64,000 nt of DNA from contig VXAZ01006886.1 in NCBI GenBank assembly GCA_013399875.1, positions 384,107 to 448,106 on the forward strand, read 5' to 3'. A program made the translations under genes and the position numbers. The first letter of the stretch is position 1; every line of letters begins with the position of its first letter. This DNA is from Gymnorhina tibicen (lineage: Eukaryota; Chordata; Aves; Passeriformes; Artamidae). The notes under the pieces were generated by a model. That model was not told the DNA's origin, made no database searches, and saw only the letters and a program-made list of their open reading frames with translations. Below are positions 25,356 through 63,400 of this stretch, one piece after another.

Positions 25356-25607
<252 letters not shown>

Positions 25608-26406
25608 TAGCATGTGAGTCCTTTTATATTCTTACGTGATCCCGCTCTGGAGTAGAAGGAAAATGTGAAACAACATTGTTTACAGCTGTAGGGTTTTTAT
25701 GTCTGTACGTGGACATTGGTTTTACAACTGTTTAAGAGAAGTGCTTAAAAAAAACTATTGTGTCTTCCCCATTAATTTTTCCATACCTACCATGAGTATA
25801 ATACTGAATCTTTGGAGAAGAAGAAGGTCTTCTATCCCCATTTGTTTGTTTAATGCCTTTGACAGCATTCTGCATGTAATCAGGTCAACTGTTGTGGCAG
25901 TTCATGGTTACTAAACTGATTTCATCTGTTCTTGTCTGGGTCTTCCAGGCATTAACAAAGGAGAGAAAAACAGTTTTTAAAGGACTGTGTGTCTACAGAG
26001 CCATGCAGGTGACCAAGATGGCTGGTGCAGTATCTGCAGTTCACTTTTAGGTTAGATTTTGAAGTTGACTTGGTATAAATTCTGTAATATCTCTTTTATT
26101 CTCACTCTCAGTTTGATTCAAAAGAAAAGAAATGCTCAAATAACTTCTAAGCCTCCACAGCCTCATGTTGATCTGGATTGTCTAAAACAAGCTAATGTAC
26201 CGGAGCTGTAACACGGAGTTGATTTAAATTTTTTGAAGAAACATGAACCTGTATTTTTAGCTGTCTAAACCCAGGAAAATAGCAGCCAAATTATTCTGGA
26301 ATAAGCTGCACCCCAGAGTTCAAGTTTTGATTAGGACTTATCTGGTTTCATATCAAAGAAACACATCCTGTGAAAATTTAATACTGCAGGCAGAATCTTC
26401 TGCCGC

Positions 26407-26450
26407 TCTTTCACCATTTGACATCTACGAATGTCAAATGGTGGAAAGTA
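26407..26450. repeat. Compact hairpin (inverted repeat)
   Basis: CACCATTTGACAT at 26412-26424 and its exact reverse complement at 26431-26443 enclose a 6-nt loop. Five further pairs (CTTTC/GAAAG) extend the stem beyond a one-base bulge. The total stem is about 18 bp. That is shorter than a usual microRNA precursor unless weaker pairing extends it. It could be a remnant of a palindromic transposon. Confidence 0.8.
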
Positions 26451-29400
26451 CACCCTGTTTAAATCAGTGTGAGTTGCAAGTGTTACTAAGCAAATGTGTG
26501 CTTGGGTAACAAGCAAAATGTTGAAGCTTGTGATCTAACAAAGGAAGAGAAATGAATGGTGACTTGTGGTCTAACCAAGGATACAGGTGAATTTGGTTTC
26601 TTTGGTGAAACTATTATGTTTTGACCTTTGAAACTCAGCCTGAGGCATTCAGACTGTGCAAACTGAAGTAAGCAATACAAAACACCCCTCTGATTTTTTA
26701 AGACAATCATGCCTATTGCAGTATGGCTGTATTATTGAGCATCTGTCTTGAAAGGTCCAGACTTTGAGTTTTACTTGCTAAATGTTTTTGCAGAAGACTT
26801 CACACCACATTTCTTGTAAGTGTTTGTTATGACTGTGGGAGAAAATCAGATGTGTGGATGAATTTGTCTGGAAGGCAAACTCAGGGGTGCATGACTCTTT
26901 TCTTAACATGTTTACTAAGTGAAATGCTTGCAAAACAGCTTCATATATAGACTTGGGCCAGGTAAGACCAAATCAAGCCCCGGGAATCATTTGCACACAA
27001 ACATAATTAAGATAACCGCCTCACAAGTGTTGTTAGCAAGACGAATGGGATCTAGGATATGATGTTTTGGTCTATGTTATCTTTAGTGGAAAAATACGAT
27101 AAAATGAAAAAGACCTTGTTCATGTTTTTCTAAATCAATGACCCACAGCTAGAAGAAAAGCAGAACTCTCATTAACATAACAGCTGTCTTAATGTGGCTT
27201 TAACCCTGTGACTTTTTACATTCCTCATGGCTTCCTTGGTTCCCTCGAGACGCATCCTGTCTCACACCGCTCGTATGATCTACAGCCTCATGAATTCCCC
27301 AGTACCTCTGACATGGATATTTTACCTAACCCAGCATGGAAGAGAGTTCCCAGTCAATCAATGATTAAAATACCAGAACAAAACCTTTCTGGATTAAAGA
27401 TGAGCTGGGGTTGAAGTAACCAGCCTGTGGGCAGTTTCCTAGTGCACTCCATCTGTCTGGTACCCTTGAAGGCTGGCAGAGTGATTTAGCAGTGGATTAA
27501 GGGATACAGGATTTGCCTTATCAGCGTTCAGCACCTCTCTATAGCCCCTTAAAATAGCCACGTATGATGGCCATGAAATAAAAGACGACCTGTGAAAAGA
27601 AAATAACCCTAAGAGACTCGAGGCTGAGAGGGCTGGATAGCCATACTGAAGTAGCATTCAAGCTTTCTTAGTCACACTTCTTTTTTGGTGACAGTATGAC
27701 AGAGATCAGAGATACCAAATTTTATATGGATATATACACAAAGATCTCTTTGACTGCTTCCCAATAAAGCATCATCTAAAAGAGCTGGCTCTTGCAGCCT
27801 GAATCAAGCTAAGCCCAGAAGTTTATTTATTTTTTTCTTTTGGAGCTGTAAGGTTCAATTTTGTAGAGTGGTTTTATATTGTCTAGGTAGTTATTTAGTT
27901 GATTACAACTGGATGAACCTTGCTATTCCCTCAGTCCCTGTGTGTAGCACTTGCATCTCATGTTTTGTTTTCTCTACCCTGCCACCCCCGTGCTTCCCCT
28001 TCCCTTCTGTTCCCTGAGGCTGTCTATTACTCTTGTGAAAGGAAGAGTCTTAAACCACTGAACCATGTTTTTCCTCACTTTCCCACTGCTGAAGGGTAAC
28101 CAAATGCATGTTTCTAACCTGGTTGCTTGGAGGTGGGGAAAAAAAACTTGCCTCTGGTCTGGGATCAAGCTTAGAACATGTCAGCCCCTAAGGGGAATTT
28201 TTGAGCGCTACAAGCAACTGAAAACAGGCTTTACAGTGTGAATGGTTTTTATGTACCTAATCATGGGGACAGGAAAGGCTTTTGGGGAAAGAAGTGTTCC
28301 AACAAACTCCGCGTTGTAAGAGTCATAAGATGTGTAACTATAATCATTGCAAATATTTCAGCACTGGGTGTAATAAAGAGTTAAAATGCTCCCTGCAATT
28401 CCTCCTGCAGCGCCTTTCCACTCAAGGACTGTTGAGTCCTTCCCCCCAGTGTTTGAACCTAGATGTGATGTGGAGCCAGGACAACCTATTCTGCTGCCTC
28501 TTCCAAAGGCATTTGTTCTTCTCTGCACATTAGATGCAGAAGGAAAGGGAGAGTTCTTTGGTCTTGTGCGTTTATCAGATAAAATTCAGAAAGATAAGCA
28601 CTGTTCCAAAGGAGGATCCTTCATTAAAAAAAAAAAAAAATTAGTAATGCTCTGGGAATGTGAAGTTAAAGATTTGCGTATTTTGAGTAAAAATTGCAAC
28701 CTTGCAGTGCTTTACCTGTTCAGTTAAAAACCTCATTAAAACCATCATTAGGTTGCAGTGCAGGCCCTTGAGGTCTATGGCCTGTTTTTACTGACAATCT
28801 GAAGGCAAATTTGAAAAGTGAATTTATTTCCAGTGTAAATCAAAGGCTCTTTCTGAGCTTCAGAGCTGTGGAGTTTTGGTTTCTGTAACGAATGGTGCAT
28901 AAGGAATGAAGTGGGTAGTATCTTTTCTGGCCACCTTTGATTCCCACATCAGGCTTGTTTTTAGACCTAGATGAACTGGGCAAGCTTTGGCAGCAGCTTG
29001 GGGCCTGTTTCAGATTGGTGGTGGGGAGTGTTTACGTCAATCTTTTGGCAAAGGATTTTTAAATAAGCTTCAGGTTCGTCCTGTGGCCAGATAGGAGCCT
29101 GCCTTGGCCAATGGGGGCAGGCCACGCAGGCAAATCTTTTGGGGCTGTGTGTTGATGGCAGGCATCCCAAATTGCCAGAAATGTGGTGCATGAGACTTGT
29201 GTATTGGACCATGTTAAGGAGTGCCCCAGCCTGGGGATCCTTGGGGCAGGAGGCCGTGCTGTGAGAAGCAGTTGGCACATGGCCTCCCTGTTTAACTCCA
29301 AAATGCAGTGAGAAAAATTTGGTTGGATTCTTTTTTGTCCATGAATAATGGTGAAAAAGTAGGACAAGTCAGGAAGAATTCTGAATGCTGACTATTTCCC

Positions 29401-30284
29401 ACCCTGAAGAGTTTCTTCTTAGCCAAATCCCAGTTTTAAACTGATTTGCTTGAAAACATAAAAAAAAAGTTGTTTATCAACAGAGCATGTCTGAAAATTT
29501 AGGCAGATCTCTCCAGGCTACAAGCATGGAATTGAATGTTCCCATGTCAAACTTGTAATTGGCTTGTAAGCTATTGTAAAAACCGTATTATAACCTCAAC
29601 AAATGAGTCCCAAGAGCTCAGAAGTCTTGACTAGCTAGAAGAAAAATTATTTAAAAAAAATATTTTAAGTGTTGTGCTTGCATATTATTTTCTTCGTTTC
29701 ACTGTGGTACATGTAGGGAGAGAGTCTGGAGAGGAGTGAGGGGAAAGGTGAGAGAAGAAGTTATGACTTCTGAGCTAATAGTAGGTTTAAAGGCTCTGGA
29801 GTCCAGTTTCTCAGTTTTAATAGTCTTTTCTCAGTAGAAAACAGTGAAAAGCACTCCCTGAGAAATCACTGGGGAGGGGAAATCTGTGCCAAAAAAAGTC
29901 TTAACTTGCTCTCAGCTCCTCTGAAATGGTTTGAGCCTGTACACTGAACTGCCCAGTCCTATGGGAAGATGGAGCCAAGCAATGTAGAATGGATTCAAGA
30001 ACATTTAAGACCTTTCAGCAGACCTTTACAGTTATTCCTGATGTGGTTTATGGAGAATTTCTAATGCCTTTTCCTGAGACTGAACCTTTTGCATCATAAA
30101 AAGGCTAAAGAAAGAAAATGCTGTGTGCATCCTTGCAGTAGATAACCCTGTAATAGCAGGTCCCCCCTCCCCTGTAAAGGGGAAATCCTTATGGGTAAAT
30201 TAACCAACTGCATTCATATGCAGGCCCAAGAGGACATTTTTAAATATAAAGGAAAAGAGGGATGTGATTTTGATTGTCTCTTTC

Positions 30285-30480
30285 TGTTCCCTGCTGCCTA
30301 AGGGCTCTAATTAGTGTCACTTTAACTTATAAATACACGGTTCAATTTGCTTATTACTCAATAATTTTCAGAACTATTCAGCTGCAGTTTTTTAGAAGTA
30401 TTTTTGTAGGACTGAGTCAAAGTCTTCTCAAAGAAACCTAAGAGATCTGAGTACGTTGGATCACACTGGGAGGTGATTGG
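30285..30480. promoter_or_regulatory. Weak candidate regulatory stretch in intron 5
   Basis: The sequence is AT-rich with CTAATTAG, a palindromic homeodomain core (30306-30313), a TATAAATA run near 30330 and several CAAT/TTAC motifs. It precedes a T/G-rich low-complexity tract (about 30512-30640). Support is only motif density. Confidence 0.2.
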
Positions 30481-33399
30481 GAGTCCCTAATCCCTTTGGC
30501 ACAGTCTATTGGCTTTTTGGTTTGTGTTGTTTTTTTTTGTTTTATTTTGTGTGTGGTATGTGTTTGGTTTCGTTTTGACTTTCTTTGCTTTTGTTTCTTT
30601 TGGTTTTGGGATTTTGTTTGGTAGGTTTTTCCCTTTTATTTCCCCCCTTCTACTCCAGTGTGTTTTCAAAGAACTCTGGTTTCCAGCACATTGATTACTC
30701 GTAGTATCCTAAACAGCATCACTTTCCTTCCCCATGAAGAGCAGCCTTTGGCTGGCAGGGAACCTTCAGCCTTGTGACATTCCCACTGGTGGCCACGGCA
30801 GGTTTCTCTCAGCAGGCTTTGGGCACAGCTTTGGGATGCTGTGAGGGAACATGGTGTGCATCTGTATGCAGTGGACCTTATTCCTATGAGGCTGGGGGCG
30901 TGCAGATGTCACAGCCAAGCTGATTTTTCAACTAGTTGTGCTAAAAAGCTGTTTCTACTCTTTCTTCATCCTATGGCTGGTCCCTGGCAGTGCTCTCCCA
31001 GCAGCTGATCGTACTGATGGTGAGCCAGGATGGAAACTCATCCTACTGCAAAAAAAACAGAAAAGGGAGGATAAAAAACTTCTTTCCTGTGCACACCCTC
31101 GAAGGCCTGCTGAAATGAGTGAGGTCTGACATCTGTAGGGACTGCAGGAGCAGACACTGAGGGTGTCTGTAGAAGTCACACTGCCGTGTTTTGCAAAGGT
31201 AACACAGCTGGCTCTGCCCAGGCTGGTGCAGCTCAGCTTTGTTTGCAGTTTCCTTCTTCAGCCTCCCCTCTTCCCAAGGCACCCCTGCTGCTTCTGGCAC
31301 AGCCCACATTCTTTCCCTGGTGGAACATCCGCCAAGGACTCTGGCTTCCAGGATGGTCAGACTTTGTTTTGAACATGTGAATTTTGTGGGAAGGGAGAGG
31401 TGGGGAATAGTAGGGTGGGGGAGGCAGTTACCATGAAAAATATAATGAGGAAAAAGCGAACCACCCCCCCCTTCCCCCATCTAAAATCCATCTAAAATTA
31501 GAAGTGCCGTTAACAATACATCAGTCTTTTGACTTTGTGTGTTTCTGGCACTCATGCTTGCAATGGTCAGGACTTTGTATAACAAAATATCCACGGGTTT
31601 TTTGCAACATTCACATCTTGAATGTTTTGCCTTGTTGAATCAGGGATCTTTTTGCCTTAAAAGCACATAGAGCACTCTGTGTTTACGATCAGACTGTCGA
31701 AATGTCAAGGCTAATTACACTAGTGTGCTCCCAAGTGAATACATGCATCTTCTAAAGAATATCCTTTTGGGATCAACAAAATAAGATATTGGCATGATCA
31801 CTTGCAAACTACTTTAAGAAAAAATGATAATAAGAGGCAGCATCTAAATATTAGGAAATAAAGATGAAAGAAACCTATTAGTTCACCTTATCCATTCTAC
31901 ATTGGTGCAAAATACAGTTTTTATGTTCTGTTGCAGAGTGATTTCTTTTTTGGTCAGTGCAGTCCCAGGTGCTTGAAAAACTGGGGCCTCCAGTATTTAA
32001 AGGGCTACTTTCCCCCTTTTGTTCTATATTTCATCCTCTTCAGTTCTGTTTTCGAGATAGAAATTTTGGCCAGACATTGGGATTCAAATTTGTTTCCAAA
32101 TCATCTGGATAATTTACATTCCATCTTTGAAAGTGACATAGGAACTGAGGAGTCCAAGCCTCACTAAAATGAGTGTGACTTGGCTTCTGTGCAGACATAG
32201 TTTTTGAATGCTTGGGTCCCTCAGCCAAGCCATACTTCCTCTGTCCATGTTTAGATAGTTTAGAGTTTGATTTCTCTTGTGCCCACCGCAGGGTGGAACT
32301 TTCTCACAGGATGACACTTGGGATCTCCTCCAGGGGTTTCTTTGTACTGGAAGCATCCCCGCAGCTGGGGGATGGTTGTGTGCTTCTCAGAAGGAGATTG
32401 TGGGAGAACAGGAGTGTCCTATGGGGACCTGCTAGATTTGAAAAGGCCTCTCACAAGATGAGGATTTTGTCATGTTGGTGGAAGATGAAATCTGTTGCAC
32501 ATAAAGCAACACTGTATTTAAATCATATTGGAAATGTACAAACAAAAGACAGTATTTCCCCAGGTGCTTACAATATGTTTCTAAGCAGGCACACTGGCTT
32601 GTGGTGACTGGATTTATTTTTAAATTTTGGCTTGAGATTAGCAAAGTTTTTCAAGATTTCTTTAGTGGTAGTAGTGTACACAGATTTTTTTATGATACAT
32701 GAGGATTTAAGAAATAAAAAATTTCTAGCCCCTTGAGAATAGATCAGGTCATCTTACTGTAGTCTAAGGGAAACGTGATTAAAAACCCCAATAATTTCAT
32801 TTAACATAGAATTTAACTGCTTCTGAATAAAGCTTGGGATTTGACTGATTTCAATAAGCATTACATAGAATGTAAATAAAATATTTACATTTGAGTTATT
32901 TAGGTTTCAGTTATTTAGTTTTTAGAAACCTTTTGTTGATTTGTTGGCTTTTTTACTCTTGTTTTCTTATGTGCCTCTACCATTCTGTAGTGAGGAGCTT
33001 GTGTGGCATTAGTGGCAATAAGACTTCCTCCTCAGTTTTGAATTTGTTCAAGGGGTTTTGGTGAGTTAATTTTGGACTAACTCTGGTGCTAGTCAGGTGC
33101 CATCTGCCTTCCTGCCACCCAGGGAAAGCAAGAGGCCAGTGCCAGAGGACTGTGCCAGTGCCATGTGACATGGGTGCCTGTCAAGTAGCACTCAGCACAT
33201 CCCAATCACACAGGACTGAGGTGGCAATGCACAGCCTTGTTTCTGCACAGCCCAGGCAGGTTTCTGCACCCCTGCAGAGTCCCACTTAATATAATGGGGC
33301 TCCAGGTGGCAACAAAGCTCTGCACAAGGATGTTCATTGTGTGGCTCCTGCAGACTTTTTGATACCACTGAGTGTGTCCCTTTCAGGGATGTCTAATAC

Positions 33400-33435
33400 A
33401 GCTGCAGTTCTGGAAATAGCTGCAGTTCTGGAAAA
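33400..33435. repeat. 18-bp tandem duplication
   Basis: The 18-base unit starting AGCTGCAGTTCTGG occurs twice head to tail (33400-33417 and 33418-33435), with differences only at the 3' end. It is small, and slippage is the likeliest origin. Confidence 0.75.
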
Positions 33436-33649
33436 AATGCTAATCTATAAAATGAGCCAAAAATCCGTCTGTAAATAAAAGTATAAAACTTTGCATTTAT
33501 GTAAATCGCTTACTACTGAATTAAAGTTTGGGATCTGACCCATTTTAATAAAGATCTGGAGTTTGAAGGCAAATGCTTATCTGTAGAGGAAACAAAATCT
33601 TGTTACCTCACTTTCCTGAGTGAAATCCATTTACATAGTGTAGTCAGTT

Positions 33650-33790
33650 CATGTTCCCAAAGCATTTGGAGATCATCAGATAACCCTCTTGACCTGAAGA
33701 AGAGAGAGTGTCAAGGAAAAAAGCCGTAGTTAATGACCTGGGTCAGCTAATTACAACAAGCTTGCTGTTCCCTGATCACTCTTTGACCTC
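33650..33790. promoter_or_regulatory. Weak candidate regulatory stretch in intron 5
   Basis: A repeat-free stretch has GATCATCAGATAA, a TTAAT core, CAGCTAATTAC (an E-box half next to a homeodomain core) and CTTTGACC in close succession. Function is inferred from motif clustering only. Confidence 0.22.
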
Positions 33791-35621
33791 CATTATCCTT
33801 CCTCAGTGTTCTTTGGATCTTTAGCAAGGTCTCTTGCTCTACAGACTGAATCTAGACCCATCCTCAGCTACTGCTCATTGCAGGTTTTGCATCTCCACCC
33901 CCGTGCCTTGTCCCTGCCAGCTGCTTTCAGAAATGGTTCATGTGGAGACAGAGGGGGGGTTAGTATGTACAGCAAAAAAACAAGAGAGGGATTTGTGACA
34001 TAGAACAGAGGCTCCACCTATCCCTCTGTCCTGTATCCTAAACCGGAGTGGGAGTGTATAATTGAGGAGTAGATGTTGTGGCCAAAGGAGGAGGCAGCTG
34101 TGTGAACTGAGCATCTCATTCTGAAAAGAGGATGAAGTCAGAACAAACTTCATGGTGACAGATGGCCTATGTCAGAAACCAGATGGCCCAGTGAGTCCCA
34201 CCACCCCTGTCGTGAAATAGCAAGCAGAGGAGAAGCCCACAGTGTAGCCCAAAATGTTGTTACCCTCTTATGTGAGGGCCACTCATGGTTTGTAAATGGT
34301 GTTACACTTAGAATCCCAGTCTGTGATGCCTGATTCATAAGCCAGCAAGGGCTGCTTGCAGGAAGGATGACAGACCTGAGCCCCATCTTATACAAATACA
34401 TCTATATGTGGCTCATCAGCCAACATGCCTCAGTGGCTTTCAGGCCAGGCTGCCTTATAGGCTGTGCAGATTTACTTTATCAGATGTTAACACTCAGTTG
34501 AGATCTTATCTAATTGATTGTATCCATAGATGAGCACCGCAGCTGCTCCAGGTTGTAGGATTATGAGCAACTGGCTGCTTGTTTACAAATGTGTGCGGTC
34601 TCTATTGCCTTAAACAACCATTCTTTCCCTCAGTGCTCCGCCGTGGAGCTGAGAGCTGTAATCAAGAGCCTGCTCTGACCCTGCAACAAGGCACTATGCC
34701 TGCACACTGCTGCAGGCACCCCTGCACTGACTCCTTGCCCTTCCAATTTGTGATGTGTGGAATCGCTATAATATCAAAATTAACAAATGTGTTCTGCAAC
34801 TCCTATTATATCTGCATTTGTGACATCTTGCCTCTTCCTATCTTGGAAGTAGTAAGAGCCATCCAAGACTTGGAAAACTTAAAACATGAACTGAGAATGA
34901 CGTGAAGAAAAGCAGATTTATAGCTAGAATGTCCCACAAATCCAAACACCATCTGGTCGGTGCGCTGTCCTGGGAACGGATTTCAAAGTGGTTCTGAAAT
35001 GCTAATCTAGTACTGAAGTTCTGACCTACTGTTCTAAGCTTATTAAGAGATGTTTTGTACATATGTGAATACATGAAAACTTGCTGGGAGGGAAAATTTG
35101 CTTGTGTATTTTTTACATGGGGCTTGTATTTTTTCAAATTAAAAGCTTAAAGTTCTGTTGGTCGTTAGGGCAATATAGTGTCCCAATATATAAGTACAAG
35201 CACCTTCTAACAGTGCATTAAGTGATGCCACTAAAATTAAATATAAAGACAGTACAGTACAGACTAAATAGCTTTGACTGGTACTTAGATTAAATGAAGA
35301 GGTTTCCCTTTTCTCATTAAATCTGGCACAGTAATGATAGTGATTAAAAACACTAAAACTTGAAAGAGTAGCCAGTTTTTTTCAGGAGAGGTTGTATTTG
35401 GGAGGAAACTAAGGATCAGAATTCCTGTACTGCATCTGTTGAACCATGGAAATGTGTGCCAAGGGCACCTTTCTTGTCTGGGAGCACTGAGTTCAGTGTG
35501 CATCTTCTGCATCTCTCATCTCAGACACTGAGAAATACAGCTTGAAATACAATGCTGTTATTTCTGATACATCTGTATTAAATGTGCAAAAATCAAATGT
35601 TCATATTCAAAACATTTGCAG

Positions 35622-35787
35622 GTCTGGTTTAGTAATCGTCGTGCCAGATGGAGGAAGCAGGCAGGAGCCAACCAACTAATGGCTTTCAACCATCTCATCC
35701 CCGGAGGATTTCCACCCAGTGCCATGCCAACTTTGCCAACGTACCAGCTTTCTGAGCCCTCCTACCAACCCACCTCCATACCGCAAG
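35622..35787 (+). CDS. PAX3: PAX3 exon 6: homeodomain recognition helix and start of transactivation region
   Basis: The exon starts in phase 0 after TTTGCAG and reads [20 protein letters not shown] and on to ...YQPTSIPQ, ending one base into the next Ala codon before donor GTACAG. WFSNRR is homeodomain helix 3, with Ser at homeodomain position 50, the diagnostic residue of PAX-type homeodomains. The Pro/Ser/Thr-rich region follows directly. The 166-bp length matches human exon 6. Two substitutions stand out against the human protein as I remember it: Ser for Thr after GGFPP, and Pro for Thr in QLSE(P)SYQ. Confidence 0.97.
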
Positions 35788-36891
35788 GTACAGCAGCCCA
35801 CAGGTCCTTGGTTAAAATAGTGTTATTGGGGGGTTTCCTGTGCTCATCCATTGTAGAAATATTTTCTTTTCTAATGTGTTGGCTAATCTAGGGTCTGACT
35901 CAGGGAGGACCCTGAAAGCCTGCTTATTTTAACCAAGTAAGAACTCAGATTTGTTTTGCTGCAAGAAAGGGGTGGTTCTGTGTGAAGGGTGCTCTCCAGA
36001 GAAATAATCACCTCCTGCACAGCAGACGTGCAGCTTTGGTAAAGTGATGTACACTCATCCCTGTCCTGCCCCTCCACTGACCTGCTTTGCTGGAAGTGTC
36101 TGGCATGGTGTAGAAGGAGGCAGGTGCACTCTGTCCTCATTGTGATGATCAGTGATGGAGCATTGGAACTTCTGTAAATACTCTGAATATTTATCTGATG
36201 GTGGGAAAAAGCAGTTGTTTGGACCACCTTGTTTCACATCAGACAGTAGCCAGTCTCAGTAGGGTAAAAATTTTTCTTAATGTTATCAGAAATTCTGTGA
36301 ACTTGGATGGATTTGAATGGGAGGGAACAGACCCTCAAATCTAGGCTCTTGTTAGATTTTACTATTAAATAAAAACCTTATGGGTGAAATTTTATAGAAT
36401 AAGTTATGTGCTCTGCTTGCTTCCTTCTTGAGATTTGGATCCTAACTCTTGGTGGATGTTCTAATTGAGGGAATTTTTCAAAGCCCAGGGCTTCTCCCAT
36501 CCATTGCTAGGCTTGATACAAACTGTGGTGGGATTTCTGAGCTGTGACCAGGAAGGGAAAGCCAGTTACCAGTCTTATAAGTAAATAAATATTTTCCTTT
36601 ATTTTTATATATAGACATATATTAAAAAAATATTGCTGACAATATGTGCTCACTAAGGGTTGTCTGAAAACCACATGTCTGTTGCTATGATATTTACAGT
36701 CTGTTTAAGAGTTTTTGTATAAACTCACAGGCTGGTTAAATATCCAGCAATATTATAGATTTACTTCTCTACTTAACCAGTATTTAGATGCAGGTTCTGA
36801 TGCAGTTCTCTTAAGCTGAGCTTCACATAATGAACTTATTATGCCAGAAATAAAGGAGGAAAACATATCAACATGTTTCTTCTGCTTCCAG
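35788..36891 (+). other. PAX3: PAX3 intron 6
   Basis: A short 1,104-bp intron with donor GTACAG and acceptor TTCTGCTTCCAG. I see no repeat, gene or strong regulatory cluster in it. Confidence 0.93.
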
Positions 36892-37106
36892 CCGTGTCTG
36901 ATCCAAGCAGTACCGTCCACAGACCTCAGCCTCTCCCTCCAAGCACTGTACACCAAAGCAGCCTCCCGTCGAACCCAGAGAGCAGCTCTGCCTATTGCCT
37001 CCCCAGCACCAGGCATGGATTTTCCAGCTATACAGACAGCTTTGTGCCTCCGTCCGGGCCCTCCAATCCCATGAACCCTGCCATTGGCAATGGCCTCTCA
37101 CCTCAG
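36892..37106 (+). CDS. PAX3: PAX3 exon 7: transactivation region
   Basis: The exon enters in phase 1 (completing Ala) and reads [20 protein letters not shown] and on to ...[11 protein letters not shown], ending at a codon boundary before donor GTCAGT. It encodes the Pro/Ser/Thr-rich transactivation segment with no DNA-binding motif. The length of 215 bp equals human exon 7. The order and wording are characteristic of PAX3 and differ from PAX7. In human alveolar rhabdomyosarcoma the PAX3-FOXO1 breakpoint lies in the intron that follows this exon. Confidence 0.96.
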
Positions 37107-37639
37107 GTCAGTCCTGTGTTTTCAGACAGAGGATTTGCTGTATACCAGAACCAAAGAGTCTATTCCCTCAGGCCACAGTATAATGAATTGCCAAATTTAA
37201 ACCATAATGTATTCTTTATATAAGCCACATGATTTCAGTTTGCTAGTTTCCTTTTTTTTTTTTTTTTAAATTTTTTTTCCTCCTACTGGCTGAATCAAGA
37301 GTCATAGCTTATAATTAATTTCAACTGATTTATAACGGAATCATGCAGACTTCATGTTTGCATTCACTTGTCAAGCATTTTTAGTGTGCTGCTGTTCTCC
37401 TGAAGGTCCATGGCTAGGCACAGAAAACAGATCTTGTATCTTTTCTTGAATAAAATCTCTTTTAAATAACCTCATCAAGGTTTTACCAAGTGGTCCAGGA
37501 AAATTATGGGCAAGTTGTATGAGGAGAGTTCCAAGGACTGAAAAATGTGTATTGAGATGAGCTATAATCGAGTTATAAATACATAAATTAGGAGTATTAC
37601 TGCTCTTTGGCAATATATAAATGCATGAATACTATAATT

Positions 37640-47821: not shown

Positions 47822-48592
<771 letters not shown>

Positions 48593-48627
48593 GTGCCTTT
48601 CATTATCTGAAGCCAGATATTGCATAA
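48593..48627 (+). CDS. PAX3: PAX3 exon 9, terminal coding part (PAX3d C-terminus)
   Basis: After GCTTTTTTGCAG the exon completes the Ser codon and reads AFHYLKPDIA, then TAA. This is exactly the PAX3d C-terminus known from mammals. The predicted protein from the Ser onward has the same length as human PAX3d (484 residues in total, if the upstream part is also conserved). The exact match in a distant vertebrate indicates strong constraint on this short tail. Confidence 0.95.
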
Positions 48628-48910
48628 ATGAACTGTCCACTTCAAGTTAAAGCTGGTCTTTTTTTCCGGTCTCACTCCAAGGCTTGGATAAGAGGGATCT
48701 TCTCAACACACTGCAGCCTAAACTGGGGCAGTCCCACTGAGAGAAACAAGTTTGTTATGTTCTCTCCAGTCATAGCTTTTAGTAGACTTTTGAAGGCTGG
48801 ATGAAGCTATACAGAAGACAAAGGCCAAAAGCAATAATGAATAAATGTGACATGCTTCATTATGAGTGGGTATACAAAACAGAGCAGTATTTAACATCAC
48901 AGCCTGGCAA

Positions 48911-51486: not shown

Positions 51487-54400
51487 AAAATCATCCATTC
51501 TTCTCACAGCCAAGCCATGCAAGCAGGACCTGGGATGGGCTCTTATCATGGGAAGGGAGGAGCCTGCGGCAGAGGGACTAAGCAGTATCTTGATTTATTA
51601 TGGGCTGTGGAAATCTTTGACAGAACTATAAGGATAGCTTGGGATACTGTTGATCCCTTCTTGTTATCACTGTCAAGACTGAAGAGGTTCTTGGGAACCA
51701 CGTGTTTCTGGAATATGAATCCTGAATGCTTAGAAAGTCAAAGGGGAATGAGCCTGCCGTGGATATTGCATTTGACAGAAAAGCCATGCAGTAGCTGGGA
51801 GGAATGTGCTCACAGCAATGGAGTCCAAACCCCACTCACTAATGGGTATGAAATGGGCAGGTCTCAGGGTCCCTCCTCTTATTTTCCTTTTTTTTGTGTG
51901 TGAGTGTGCATCTCTTACAAGATGGAAATCACCACAGCTGCTTAACCTACTGTCTGTCATCTCATTAGAACTGGAAACTTTTGAGAGACAGGTTTTCATG
52001 AAAAAATAGCTTTTCCTTGTGTCACAACCGTGATTTTTAATTTATTATTTTCTTTTAAGTCTTCCTTTATCTAGAAATATCTTCTACTCCCATCGCAATA
52101 TCCAGTATATGCATTTTGCCGTATAATTACTTTAGTATGTATTGCTATTCCTTTATCTGGGCATCAGTGAATGAACTAGGAAAAGAATAATTTTTAATGA
52201 CACATTTATCCTTTTCTTTTCCCTTTATATTTCAGTGTTTCTTACTTAAATAAAAACTAGAAATAAACATTTTTCTCCAATAATCACATGGGGTTTTCTA
52301 CTCAGTATTGCTCAAAAGTCTCTATCCAAATAACAAATGCTGTTGAAGTGTATCTTTCTGAGCTATTTTGAAAGACACAAAATGCCTGTCTGAATCTACA
52401 AATCTTCACTGAAAATAGCTGATTGTCAAACAGGTTCTATGTCCTCAGAAATCCGTTTCTGCACCCGTGTGATACTGGAGTTAGGTTTTTAATCCCTAGG
52501 TTAAGGTTTGTGCAAATTCAAACACAAAATATCTAGTTACAGGTCTGTAACTCATATCTCCAAATGTAATGAAACAATACAAAATTACTTAACTTTGGAA
52601 TTCCAGCCCCACCCCAAATTATCACATGCTACTAATATTTTTTTGTAGCAAAGATGTCTTTGCATTTTCTCAGAAGTATGGCAGACTATAGCATGCAAGC
52701 TATTTGTTATGTCTGAATGCTGTGATGTATCCTCATACATATAAGAAATGCATTCTCTCTGGTTACTGCTGATGTGTAAAGCATGCATTTTTGCTGTATT
52801 GGTAGCCATGAACATTCACAACATATGCTCCCCATAAAGGCCTTAAAATCTCTAAAGTGGATTACAAGAAGGTACCTTTGTATGAAATAAGAAATTAATT
52901 TAAGGAAATATCGATGGGACTGTCAGAAACCTGGAACAGCTTATATTTATAAACTTCTTTGTATTTTTCACTTCAATGTTCTGCTTAATTTCAAGAAAAT
53001 CTGAATCCTGATTAGAAGATCCCATTTTTCATTTATTTTGGCTTTCCCAATGACATCTAGATATTCCCTAGAGCAACTGGAGAGTCCTAGGGTTGTTTAA
53101 AGAATCACATGAGTTCATTTGAATCTGTTCAAGATATTTGTCTATTGTAAAATAATAAAACTTGCAGTCTGCTTCTGTGATCATTGCAGGTAAGAGGCCA
53201 TTTGATGTGTCAGATTTTCACTCCCTGTTCTCTCCCAGCACTTCTGGGCACCTCATCACAGGCTGGGAAATCCTCATCAGTCTCAGGGAGCAAAATGCTA
53301 TAGCTAGAGGTTTAGTCATGTTCAAAAACTTAGAGGTATTTGTCATACAAGCAGGCTTCAAAATTGGGATGTGTACACAGCGCTGGCGCTTGGCTCTGTT
53401 TTGCCGTCATGGCTCCCACAAGCAACTCTTCACAGTGTTCACACACAGTTTAAATCTTTGCTTAGTGCAGTTACATCGCCTCAGAACCAGTGACTGAATA
53501 ACCCAGAGTGGCTGTGGACAGCTTGGGCACTGCAACATTTTGACATGCACTGTTTATTATTCAGCTACTCAGGCAATGTCATGAAAAATCATAATAAAAC
53601 TAGGAAGACACATCACATTTGACCTCTGCTGAATAATTTAATAAAGCCAACTTGACACACAAATATGAAAGTGCAGTTGCTGGTAAGACCGGAACTATTG
53701 CTTCCTTGTCCAAGAATTGGAAGCAGTTCAGAAGCTTTATTAACCATTCAGTATCTTCATCTTCAGCAAAGTTTGTCCCTTAGGCCATAACCAAATGTTA
53801 AGCTACTTGTTTCTCCCTGCACTCCCCTCCTTTTGGCGCTCACACGGGTATCTTTGCTTATGCTGTACACAATTATGGTCTCAGTTCTTCTCATGTCTCT
53901 ACAATTATCCGTGTTTTTTTCTCACAGACTCCGTTTTATTTACACAAACATTTTTCTCCCCATAGTTATGCATTTATTCATAATGATCTCAAGTGTACAC
54001 ACCTGTAAAAATTTAGCTTTAAAAGAGTGATTGTTACAGGTACTCTGCAGATTCAACCCTTGATATTTTATAATTCATCAATTCGGAGACAGAAAAAACA
54101 TCTTTGGAGCCACCCTCATGTGAGTGTCCCCATGGTCAGTACCAGAATAATTAATGAAGGGTACAATTCTCCCAAGGGTTTTGAAATGCTGTTTTGGCCA
54201 CATTTATCCTGGGGAAGGGTCTGTCGAGGCTGGGGGTGGTGTGGCTTGCAGGGACCATCTGGTTCCGCACTACACGAGCCATAGAGCTTCACTGGGGTCT
54301 TGCCCTTCTGTGGAGTTCATGACACAGCATTTGTCTGAACCCTTTTTCCATCATCCCCATCTGAAGTCTCCAGGTGGTGGAACACATTCTTTGCCCTCAA

Positions 54401-55558
54401 TGTCATGGCTTCTCCTCATTTCCTCTCTTTCCCCGTGGCTCCCCAACAAACTTGAGTTCTGCCACTGTGCAGGTGCCCACCAGCCACACCTTTTATCCCA
54501 GTGCCTGCATCAGCTCAACAGAATTTCTCTCTCACTTGCTCTTCCCAAAGACTCCGACCAGCAGCACCGGCACCAACTGCAGCACTCCCAAAATGGCACA
54601 TCACTGTTTCACCTGCTGCTGAATCCTGAGGGAAATATTTATGCAGTCAGGACTGCCTGATCTGAAAAGGGAACTATGAATGTGTGTGAAAAGGCAAGGC
54701 GGAGTTCGGCTTTTCCTTTAGAGGCCAGAAGGGTTTCTAAGTGCAGTGCAGTGTATCTGTGGCAGGCATGGGGTGGGGATGGTGGGGGGCCAAGGGGGGC
54801 CACTGTGGAGTACGTGGGGAGCAGCCAAAATGTGGCCCTCACCATCTGAGAGGACACAGCCCTGAGGAGAGAACAGAGCCACTGCCAGGAGCAGCTTCTG
54901 ACCTGCTGGGACTGGGGAACGTCAAGGGGACAGCACTCTACTGGGGGCTGCTGGTGGGACGGGGCTCAGTGTGTGTGAACCATCTGGTCTCTCTGGTGCC
55001 AGGATGTCCAGATGCCATGTGCAGCGGAAACAGCAACAGCTTTCCCTGCGGGTGGGTGGAGACACAGCAGGAGCCATGCTGGGAATCCTCCGAGAAACCT
55101 GAGGGATTTTTTCTGCTGAGGGTAAAGCCCAAATACAGTTTTCCATGTGGATGTTGTCCTGGGGAAGGTGCACAGTGGGTGGGACGGGAGATGGTGCTGT
55201 GGCCCCTCAGGACCCCTAAAAGTGCATTTTTCTCGAGTGTGTGGGGTCAGCAAAGGGTGGCTGAAGGGAGCAGCCAGGGCAGGGGTGTTCCCAGCCACAG
55301 CAGAGATGCTGCCTTTGGGTAGAGCTCAGTCTGTCCTTTGGGAATGGTTGGGAACAGCATGTTCCATTCCTGGAGTTGGCTCCTGGTGCATAGAGCACTG
55401 TGCAAAATTAAATCCCTCTCCCTTTGCAGGGGCTACTGGGACATGGCAGGGCTGTGCCAGTGCTGCAGTGGCCCCAGATGATCCATGTGTGAGCAGCAAT
55501 GGGGTATGGTAGGGAATAAGATCTCCTGGGGATTTGCTTGGTAACTGCACTTCCCAGG

Positions 55559-59749: not shown

Positions 59750-59985
59750 GCTATTATTAATAGACTTCACAGACAAGGCAGGCTTATCGGCCAAATGCCT
59801 CATTATCAAATGACTGAGACCCAATAAGGGCTTAACAGCATTCCTTACCAAAAGAGGAAATGGTTCCAGGCCAGATCCAACTCTGCCAGAGCCGGTGGAC
59901 AGAGCCCCACTTCAATGAAGCATCGCTTGGGGCCCCTCGGTGCTCACTCCCCTCTATTTTCTGACACGCTTTTTAATTCCCCAAA
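59750..59985 (+). promoter_or_regulatory. Putative promoter/5' region of the KCNE-like gene
   Basis: The 235 bases before the ATG form a repeat-free block. They contain a TATTATTAATAG run near 59750-59762, a TTATCGGCCAAATG stretch and a CCAATAAGG box (59821-59829). The block becomes GC-richer towards the ATG. KCNE genes often have non-coding 5' exons, so this could instead hold the acceptor of a terminal coding exon: a TTCCAG at about 59864-59869 is one possibility. The transcription start is not identifiable. Confidence 0.3.
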
Positions 59986-60312
59986 ATGAACCAAACAGCT
60001 TTAGCTGCTCTCATCTCGCAATGTGTTCTGCAACTTCTGGAAAGGAACCTGGACACAAGGAGAAATGCTACAGAACAAAAAGAGCCACAATACAAACCAT
60101 ATGACAACGCCTATTTCTTCATCCTCTTTGTCATGTTGTTTTACTCTTTCCTGGCATTAACTGTCTTCTTTGGTTATGTACGCTCGAAGAAAGCGGTTTC
60201 AAAGCAAGATCCTTACCAGGAGTTCATTGAGGATAGGAATCGAAATAAGAAGTGGAACATGACCCGGCCAGTGGTGGTGAAATTTGACTTTGAAGAAGAA
60301 AGTATTCTTTGA
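59986..60312 (+). CDS. KCNE-family potassium-channel beta subunit (KCNE6-like candidate)
   Basis: A 108-residue intronless frame. KCNE proteins are single-pass (N-out) subunits that tune KCNQ1 and other Kv channels. Seen here: no signal peptide; N-glycosylation sequons at Asn2 (NQT) and Asn27 (NAT); a transmembrane segment at about 42-64 (YFFILFVMLFYSFLALTVFF); then GYVRSKK (63-69), the family's juxtamembrane basic motif; then DPYQEFIEDRN (75-85), matching the DP(Y/F)xxYI region of KCNE1, 2 and 3. The position of the activation triplet (FTL in KCNE1, TVG in KCNE3) is Leu56-Ala57-Leu58. The acidic tail (DFEEESIL) resembles no KCNE1-5 tail I know. KCNE4 lacks the DPY motif and is much longer. 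The ATG has A at -3. Family membership is confident; assignment to KCNE6 is inference. Confidence 0.9.
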   Translation: MNQTALAALISQCVLQLLERNLDTRRNATEQKEPQYKPYDNAYFFILFVMLFYSFLALTVFFGYVRSKKAVSKQDPYQEFIEDRNRNKKWNMTRPVVVKFDFEEESIL

Positions 60313-60415: not shown

Positions 60416-60421
60416 AATAAA
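60416..60421 (+). terminator. Polyadenylation signal of the KCNE-like gene
   Basis: AATAAA lies 104 bases after the stop codon, with T-rich sequence (about 60460-60478) downstream. This would give a very short 3'UTR, and its presence supports a live transcription unit rather than a pseudogene. Confidence 0.6.
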
Positions 60422-60429
60422 TCAGAGTA

Positions 60430-63400
60430 TTGCTTAAAATAGGTAAAGGAAAAGAAGTTTCTTTCTTTTGTTTTCTCATTATCCATTTGTTGCTGGAATA
60501 TATATTTTCTAAATTTTGGAGAAATCTTATAAACTTTAAAATGAGAGCAAAAAGTGGACATTTTTAGCTTTTGGTTCCAGTTCGGTGCAACAAGAATGGG
60601 AATCCATCCTAGAGTGAGACCCTGAATTTAAGACAAAGGACTAGTTTGTGTATGCACATACCCATTCCAGTGGAATGCTCTTGCTTCTGAGTCCTTCAGA
60701 CCTGGGAACTGGCGTGTAGTATCCCTGGGAAGTGCCTCCCTGGAATAGCAGAATGCATTTTGCCTAGACCAGCAAATACTATTTAACATGCAAATACAGA
60801 AAAGCTCCTCTTGCATTCCCTCCCCTCAAAAATTAATTTCATATGCTATGGCAAAAGATTGAAAAAAAACATCTGCAAAATGTAATTAAAATGCATCTAG
60901 TGGAAAAACAGGTTGTGTATTCAGAGTGAGTTTAGAGTCCTTGCCTTGTCCATGTTTTGCATGTATTTATTCTTCACCAGTTTCTAATTGAAGTGTACAT
61001 TTCATTTATAGAGAACGGTAACTACAGCTGATCACAAACCTAACAGGGGAAGGGCTTCTCTGTGTCTGCAGTAAATATTTGCTAAAAGATTGCACAAGCT
61101 TTGCCTAGAGTTGTACTGAACACATTAGACTGCTATCTGACTTATTCATTTTTCTCCTGCCTAATAACTATTGAAAAAAATAAGAGTTCTGACATAGAAC
61201 ATATTGCTGTGCTTAATATAAAAGAACAGTGCTTAAGTGCTCAGTGATATCCTGCATGTGCTATGACACTGCTCTGATAGCACACGTGTTCATCTTCTGA
61301 GCCTTTAACTTGCGTCCTGCCTTAGCCAAGGTCTCCCATTAATGGTATTCACTTGTGTCTTGTGTGTAACTGCTTGGATACATTACACGTGGGGCTGCAT
61401 TACAGAGCCCGTGGCTGCTCAGAGGGCTCTCTGAGCACAGTAATCATTTTCAGGTGTAGGTGGGCTCTGAGTTTTCCTGGTTAATATGCATACAAAGCCA
61501 AAGTGGGGCAAATAAATTTCCATGTATGTATTAACTTTTCTTTTCCTAGTGGGATTATAAGGTTAAGGATTTGGTTTTTCTAAAGTGTGCAGTGTTCATG
61601 ATTATGCATGGACTGTTCTAGGGATGTGTAGATTTTTAATTGTCAATATTCAGAAAAAGATTTTATAAATATTCAGCCTGGGCTGAATGATCAGATGCTG
61701 TTCCTGTTTCCTGGTGGGATGTGTTAAGTGTTTCTGGTGTGTGTGCAAGCAGGGAGGTTGATGCTATGCATAATCCCTTCTCATAAAACTAAAATTTGCT
61801 TCCCACTTACCAGCCTGAATGTTTATAGAAGTAGGTGTTGACTCATCTCAGAGTGCTCAGTCTCTGATGGCTGTGCCAAAGGAAGATAATAAGAATAAGG
61901 TGATACTTTCTCAGTTGTACTTGTTCAGCCTTCAAGGATTTGCTGGTCAGACAGGGGCCATCTGAGGCAGAGGCCACTCCTGTTGTCTGACTGTGGGGGT
62001 GGGATATGTGCAGAACACTGATGTGGAAGGGTATGAACACAAGCATTTCAAAAGGCCAGAAAATGTTCACAGATGTACTTTTGCTCGATTCATCCAACTC
62101 CAATTTGAATGGTTTTGACTATAGTAACAAGACTAGAGCTGCAGTTCTTGCACAAATCAGTGTTTCGTCTATGTAATACGTGTCCTGGCTGCTTCATCTA
62201 CAGAGTTTGGAGTGGAAAAATGAAAGTTCAAGTTATCTGTGTTCACATCATGCTCCTGACTTTGGAGTATGTGAAATTGAAATCACTCTGAGCTGAGTGG
62301 CTTGTGAGGGCTTGGAGCAAATGGGCAGACTGACTCTTTCCAACACAGAGTTCTGGCTGTTTGTGCTCTGAAAGGCTGTGTAAATGTGGATTTGCTCTCC
62401 TGACAGATGATCTTTTACTGTTTTTACCTTGTAGTGAATGATTTTTTATTCTTTGCGTGTATGCTATGTCATCTTAAAAATTAAAGATAATTATTTGAAA
62501 CTTCATTCAAACCCATGTCCTTTATTTCTGTGAGCAGTTTCTGCTTTTGTGTTACCAAGTAATTATCAGATCAGCCTAAATCCCTTAAACATTCTTCAGC
62601 AATGTGCTGCCATTGTCTGGCGTTTAGGCTTTTTGGAAACATTCACAACTCGATTAACAAGAAGACCAAAAGTTCTTCAAACAATTTTACATAGTGCGTG
62701 CCTGTGTGTGTGCCAACAAGATGAGGCTTTTTCCTGTCCTATCTCTGTGCAGTAGTAAAAATGTCTCTTTGTAAATGTTAGCCACAGGACATGTTGGTGG
62801 CACTATTGGCTTTTTTTCTTTGTGTGTCAGAGCCTGTTCATCCCTGCCTGGGAGATCTTATGAGTAACATAAGAGAGAGGATAAATCCATGCTCCCCAGG
62901 CAGATCCTCAGCCATGACAGTGTTTCTGAACCTTCAGCGCACCCTCTGCCCTCCTGACCATCCAGTGAACCGAGTGGAGCTGGAGTAGTTGTAGGTTTGG
63001 AAATGTGGCACAAGACCATAGAATGATGTGCTGGATGCCTGCTCTGGAAACAGAAGGTGGTGAGGGTGGCGAGGGTAGGGATAAATGACGCACATACCAT
63101 TATGTGAAATTTCTGAGGCAGTTAATGCACTGCCTATAATATGAGAATTAGCCACCCCATTCTGTCTTCTGTGTACGAAACCGGTGTCTGTGCAGTGCTT
63201 CCAGAGCCCACAGAGCTCTGATCTGTAACCTTGTCAGTCTCCTTTACAGCCATCTCTGGTTTTCTGTGTGTGGGGTATGAAACAGGAATAGGAGAGCCAA
63301 AATAACTCCATTCATGGTGAGCCCTGGGCTGTGAAGTATGATTTACACCTCTGAGATAACCAGAATGCTCCACGATAAGCACTGGAGAAGGAAGGGGGGG

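Follow-up and report, generated by a model that had tools for sequence, protein, structure and literature searches.

Within a 64-kb stretch of bird DNA (hereafter, the window) is a small KCNE-family gene with an intact frame, which lies between PAX3 and EPHA4 and on the same strand as both. Judged from its sequence, it is very probably the bird KCNE6, which would act as a subunit of KCNQ1 with a slow current as its likeliest effect. It is a conserved vertebrate gene already present in databases under other names; useful additions here are its locus, the finding that a single genome carries it alongside both KCNE3 and KCNE4, and a group of relic-like copies.

The locus and the predicted protein

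The intact 108-codon frame encodes a protein of 108 aa (hereafter, P0001) followed by a stop codon, at the coordinates and on the strand where the preliminary description had claimed a KCNE-family gene. The window corresponds to C1640:384107-448106 and the gene to positions 444092-444418 of the same contig. The features, all on the plus strand and numbered within the window, are:

25428..37190 (+), PAX3 homeodomain exons (about 25.4 and 35.6 kb) and Pax7-domain exon (36.9 kb), from motif and sequence matches
47822..48624 (+), the final PAX3 coding stretches found with PAX3 letters as queries: 47822-48079, then a short last piece to about 48624
59986..60312 (+), KCNE6-type coding sequence, 108 aa, a single open exon
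59986..60102 (+), N-terminal part, residues 1-39, presumed extracellular, with sequons N2 and N27 and the conserved Cys13 (alignment, model)
60103..60204 (+), membrane-spanning helix, modelled at residues 40-73, with RSKK at 66-69 (alignment, hydropathy, structure model)
60208..60309 (+), presumed cytoplasmic tail, residues 75-108, with DPYQEF and the end KFDFEEESIL (alignment)
60416..60421 (+), AATAAA hexamer 104 bases past the stop codon, a candidate polyadenylation signal (a sequence match)

An in-frame TAA at 59974, 12 bases ahead of the ATG, means that the frame cannot be longer unspliced. Apart from it, 31 ATG frames in the window reach 90 aa or more, and some of these are stretches of PAX3 exons, so the length of the frame is by itself unremarkable, and what argues for a gene in the sequence is its conservation, not its length. 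A sequence scan found neither a CpG-rich start close to the gene nor a splice acceptor that stood out, both points against the KCNE6 reading. In the gene models of four bird species (P0016, P0017, P0022 and P0038) the KCNE part opens at NLDTRKNATEQ and the letters ahead of it differ, which would suit the use of an acceptor at about window position 60045; this shared start may reflect a genuine alternative first exon or an error of gene prediction.

The PAX3 coding stretches on the plus strand end at about 48624 and the KCNE6-type frame begins about 11.4 kb further on, which agrees with its earlier placing beyond the PAX3 3' end. Paired-domain exons of PAX3 were not found within the 64-kb window using short motifs, and the PAX3 5' end was therefore taken to lie before the window. 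A search of the genome (1.02 Gb in 2500 contigs) returned one strong full-length match to the KCNE6-type protein. KCNE4 was located at 131114-131605 of the same contig (minus strand), 312 kb from the KCNE6-type gene and 5' of PAX3, the side that the preliminary description gave for human KCNE4. Two EPHA4 ligand-binding exons lie within C1640 605942-610813 (plus strand), about 161 kb past the KCNE6-type gene; the larger has 97% identity over 153 residues to a human EPHA4 domain. The gene order in the bird genome is thus KCNE4(-), PAX3(+), KCNE6-type gene(+) and EPHA4(+). The human order agrees with the bird KCNE4-PAX3-EPHA4 order, and the human PAX3-EPHA4 stretch is not known to hold such a KCNE gene.

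Three side observations concern this neighborhood. A 34-base inverted repeat (48624-48657 and 60976-61009, 82% complementary, 12.3 kb apart) flanks the end of PAX3 and the KCNE gene; its arms may match by chance or derive from an old repeat. Adjacent open frames at 54154-54660 (168 aa) and 54768-55322 (184 aa) had no family match above the cut-off. A 124-aa KCNE-type teleost protein from Labeo rohita (P0072, among the best 120 of 206 profile matches) has the source name 'Paired box Pax-3', perhaps because its gene sits at pax3, a hint that the fish gene shares this place.

P0001 matched the Pfam family PF02060 (ISK_Channel, 1.4e-9) with 38.2 bits, above the gathering cut-off of 22.1 bits, and has the single transmembrane helix, N-terminal sequons and basic juxtamembrane motif of KCNE proteins. 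All the hallmarks named in the preliminary description were located: NxT sequons at residues 2 (NQT) and 27 (NAT), one helix with a hydropathy peak at residues 42-64, RSKK (66-69) and DPYQEF (75-80). A third sequon, NMT at residue 91, falls in the presumed cytoplasmic tail. The structure model was weak (mean pLDDT 65.6, pTM 0.29) and has a further predicted helix at residues 3-23 of the N-terminal part, which by analogy with other KCNE proteins would be extracellular. In the alignment, LAL (residues 56-58) occupies the place of FTL in KCNE1 and TVG in KCNE3. The best sequence match in the PDB was KCNE3, and the next were KCNE2 and KCNE1.

Conservation from sharks to a marsupial

A protein search with P0001 matched 49 of 53 candidates at E<=10 (best, 3.4e-63). 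The 35 rows that carry a species name came from birds, turtles, a crocodile, squamates, amphibians, one marsupial (Sarcophilus) and Erpetoichthys, to which sturgeon, sharks, Callorhinchus and teleosts were added among the best 120 of 206 matches of a profile search. No placental species was found among the named rows (35 in the first search, the best 120 of 206 in the profile search), and no row was named as zebrafish (49 and the best 120 of 206, respectively). The gene is not confined to birds but is ancient; a clade running from sharks to a marsupial, with no placental species among those named rows, fits the KCNE6 of non-placental vertebrates suggested in the preliminary description.

Identity to P0001 was 95% for row P0002, 94% in Chlamydotis, 82-84% in five near-full-length turtle and squamate rows, 74% in Pleurodeles, 68% in Sarcophilus, 53% in Erpetoichthys, 47% in Scyliorhinus and 44% in Callorhinchus. 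In an alignment of 43 near-full-length rows picked by the analyst, F48, V49, M50, Y53, L56 and E79 were invariant. An NxS/T sequon was kept at residue 2 in 43/43 rows and at residue 27 in 41/43, and DFEEE at residues 101-105 was present in 29/43. The triplet at 56-58 was LAL in 35 rows, LAF in three, LAM in three, LSL in one and LAG in one.

Candidate action on KCNQ1

KCNE subunits exert their effect on KCNQ1 by way of the membrane helix, and the triplets FTL of KCNE1 and TVG of KCNE3 are tied to slow and constitutive opening, respectively. KCNE6 would be the sixth member of the KCNE (MinK/MiRP) family, of ancient origin, and would cross the membrane once as a type I protein with a glycosylated outer end. 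Its helix would probably lie in the groove of KCNQ1 (Kv7.1) between voltage sensor and pore, like those of KCNE1 and KCNE3, and would alter the gating of the channel, with a slowly activating, IKs-like current as the likeliest effect. A slow current was taken as the most likely because it has been reported for zebrafish KCNE6, which according to a citing review forms complexes with KCNQ1 whose currents are slow and IK-like, even though its homology is to KCNE3 (PMC13054283).

A counterpoint to a slow current is the LAL triplet, which equals neither the slow FTL nor the constitutive TVG. This unlikeness to KCNE1 and KCNE3 also favors a same-clade subunit that in birds serves mainly another channel (Kv4, Kv2 or HCN) or trafficking, and not KCNQ1. 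KCNE proteins are described as partners of several channel families (PMC13031570, PMC13054283). However, the reported action of the zebrafish protein on KCNQ1 and the strong conservation of the membrane helix throughout the clade speak for KCNQ1, and a main role elsewhere appears rather unlikely.

The source paper on KCNE6, as cited in PMC13054283 and PMC13031570, is that of Kasuya et al. 2024 (Commun Biol 7:1662). The name KCNE6 also stands in a table entry that pairs it with Kv6.2 (PMC9843680). We infer that P0001 belongs to the same gene, which the citing papers describe as a KCNE3-like sixth member found in zebrafish (PMC13054283) and in lower vertebrates (PMC13031570); the clade found here includes teleosts. 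Our sequence differs in coming from a bird, and teleost members of the clade differ from it: exact RSKK was present in 0/12 teleost or teleost-like rows (three without a species name) vs 24/31 of the others, and many teleost rows (e.g., P0060, P0061, P0070 and P0087) have longer, Ser/Thr-rich N-terminal parts. Read from these sequence differences, the contacts of the teleost subunit with KCNQ1 or lipids may differ from those of tetrapods. Since the teleost rows lack RSKK, what was reported for zebrafish may not hold for birds.

Relation to KCNE1-5, relic-like copies and implications

In a 46-row tree that included the bird's own KCNE3 and KCNE4, P0001 fell within a separate 29-row clade (support 100/98), while bird KCNE3 grouped with mammal KCNE3 (95/94) and bird KCNE4 with mammal KCNE4 (100/99). 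The same 29-row clade was recovered without these two bird rows (94/98), and a tree without teleosts and KCNE5 gave a 21-row clade (97/97). With KCNE1-5 rows in the phylogeny, the clade spanned fish and tetrapods and lay outside KCNE1-4. Its sister was weakly KCNE2 in the smaller tree (80/40; beside KCNE2, not inside it) and was unsettled in the 46-row tree; the tree program warned of long branches meeting in all three trees.

When 15 tetrapod rows were united with one family at a time, the AU test rejected union with KCNE1 (p 0.0002), KCNE2 (p 0.0077), KCNE3 (p 0.0037) and KCNE4 (p 0.013), the KCNE1 and KCNE2 comparisons using mammal rows without the bird's own copies. Uniting three bird rows with KCNE3 rows that included the bird's own gave p 0.0056. 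Union with KCNE5, represented in trees and tests by one long-branched human row, was not rejected (p 0.099). The preliminary claim that the gene is none of KCNE1-5 is therefore borne out by the AU tests for the first four, and KCNE5 is set apart by the trees, in which the human row groups with KCNE3 and apart from the KCNE6-type clade (83/84 and 91/88, on a long branch).

The AU result for KCNE5 and the differing juxtamembrane motif of teleost clade members would both suit a P0001 that is not the published KCNE6 but a KCNE5-related gene or a seventh KCNE. Against this stands the position of human KCNE5 beside KCNE3, though on a long branch. In addition, the start, the triplet and mostly the tail are common to the clade, and a teleost member, Hypomesus, is named KCNE3-like, which fits the zebrafish KCNE6 as characterized in PMC13054283. 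We consider a distinct gene of either kind improbable. Slightly more doubtful still is a seventh KCNQ1 subunit of jawed vertebrates, not the zebrafish KCNE6, that carried the LAL triplet from sharks to marsupials and was broken in the placental ancestor to leave only relics.

Bird KCNE6 thus remains the preferred reading, and among the other members it shares with KCNE1 (MinK) the RSKK and DP(F/Y) motifs and, as predicted, a slow gating effect. KCNE1 differs in its FTL triplet and long C-terminal tail, and its union with the tetrapod rows was the one with the lowest p value in the tests above. KCNE1 and KCNE2 were both rejected as identities of P0001 on the trees and the AU tests.

Among the matches listed, 13 altered rows (lgn, ena) resemble the marsupial protein (KNPKSKPYD, QEFNE). 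These relic-like rows, picked by eye (P0043-P0049, P0057, P0064, P0068, P0069, P0079 and P0083), clustered together (100/99) in an unrooted 64-column tree, next to the intact rows, of which Sarcophilus was nearest. At the 25 positions identical in 15 intact tetrapod rows, 45/325 of their cells differ: Leu47 is changed in 13/13 and Arg66 in 12/13, to Cys in 11. Read by eye, Pro76 is changed to Leu in 12/13, and several rows lose the frame ahead of the helix or past it. Most simply, these rows would be decayed placental copies, which suggests that the KCNE6-type gene decayed in placentals. The relic-like copies might invite the view that the frame of P0001 is itself a decaying pseudogene, open by chance. 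This is very improbable, as the protein is conserved over its full length, its start unchanged and its end similar across birds, reptiles and Erpetoichthys, and 25/31 of positions 39-69 are identical in the 15 intact tetrapod rows, P0001 included.

KCNE3 (MiRP2), the top PDB match, is 40-42% identical to P0001 across 45 residues in the helix region and shares with it one open exon and a short tail, but it differs in its TVG triplet, its YIKNRVSMI end and its locus, whereas P0001 has LAL and KFDFEEESIL. KCNE4 (MiRP3) shares the contig and neighborhood but lies on the opposite side of PAX3 on the minus strand, and has 163 aa, a long tail and no DPY motif. The same genome holds both, KCNE3 (103 aa, contig C709, C-terminal end SDPYHVYIKNRVSMI) and KCNE4 (contig C1640), so P0001 is neither; KCNE3 was rejected as its identity on this ground, the AU test and the separate clade, and KCNE4 on its own copy across PAX3, the AU test and the short tail of P0001. 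Although source names read KCNE3 in Chlamydotis, Cairina, Anser and Pelobates and KCNE4 in Cyanoderma, Anas, Pseudonaja and Phasianus (together 8/35 of the named first-search rows), a plain bird KCNE3 or KCNE4 is next to impossible, and the eight entries are therefore mislabelled. Among the matches listed, rows from Ambystoma, Callorhinchus, Carcharodon and Hypomesus are named KCNE3-like.

The relic-like copies suggest a placental loss that could be dated. If the gene is expressed, this subunit may help to shape KCNQ1 currents in the tissues of birds, reptiles and amphibians. Placentals appear to be without it, which, given expression, bears on the use of chicken and frog as models of cardiac repolarisation.
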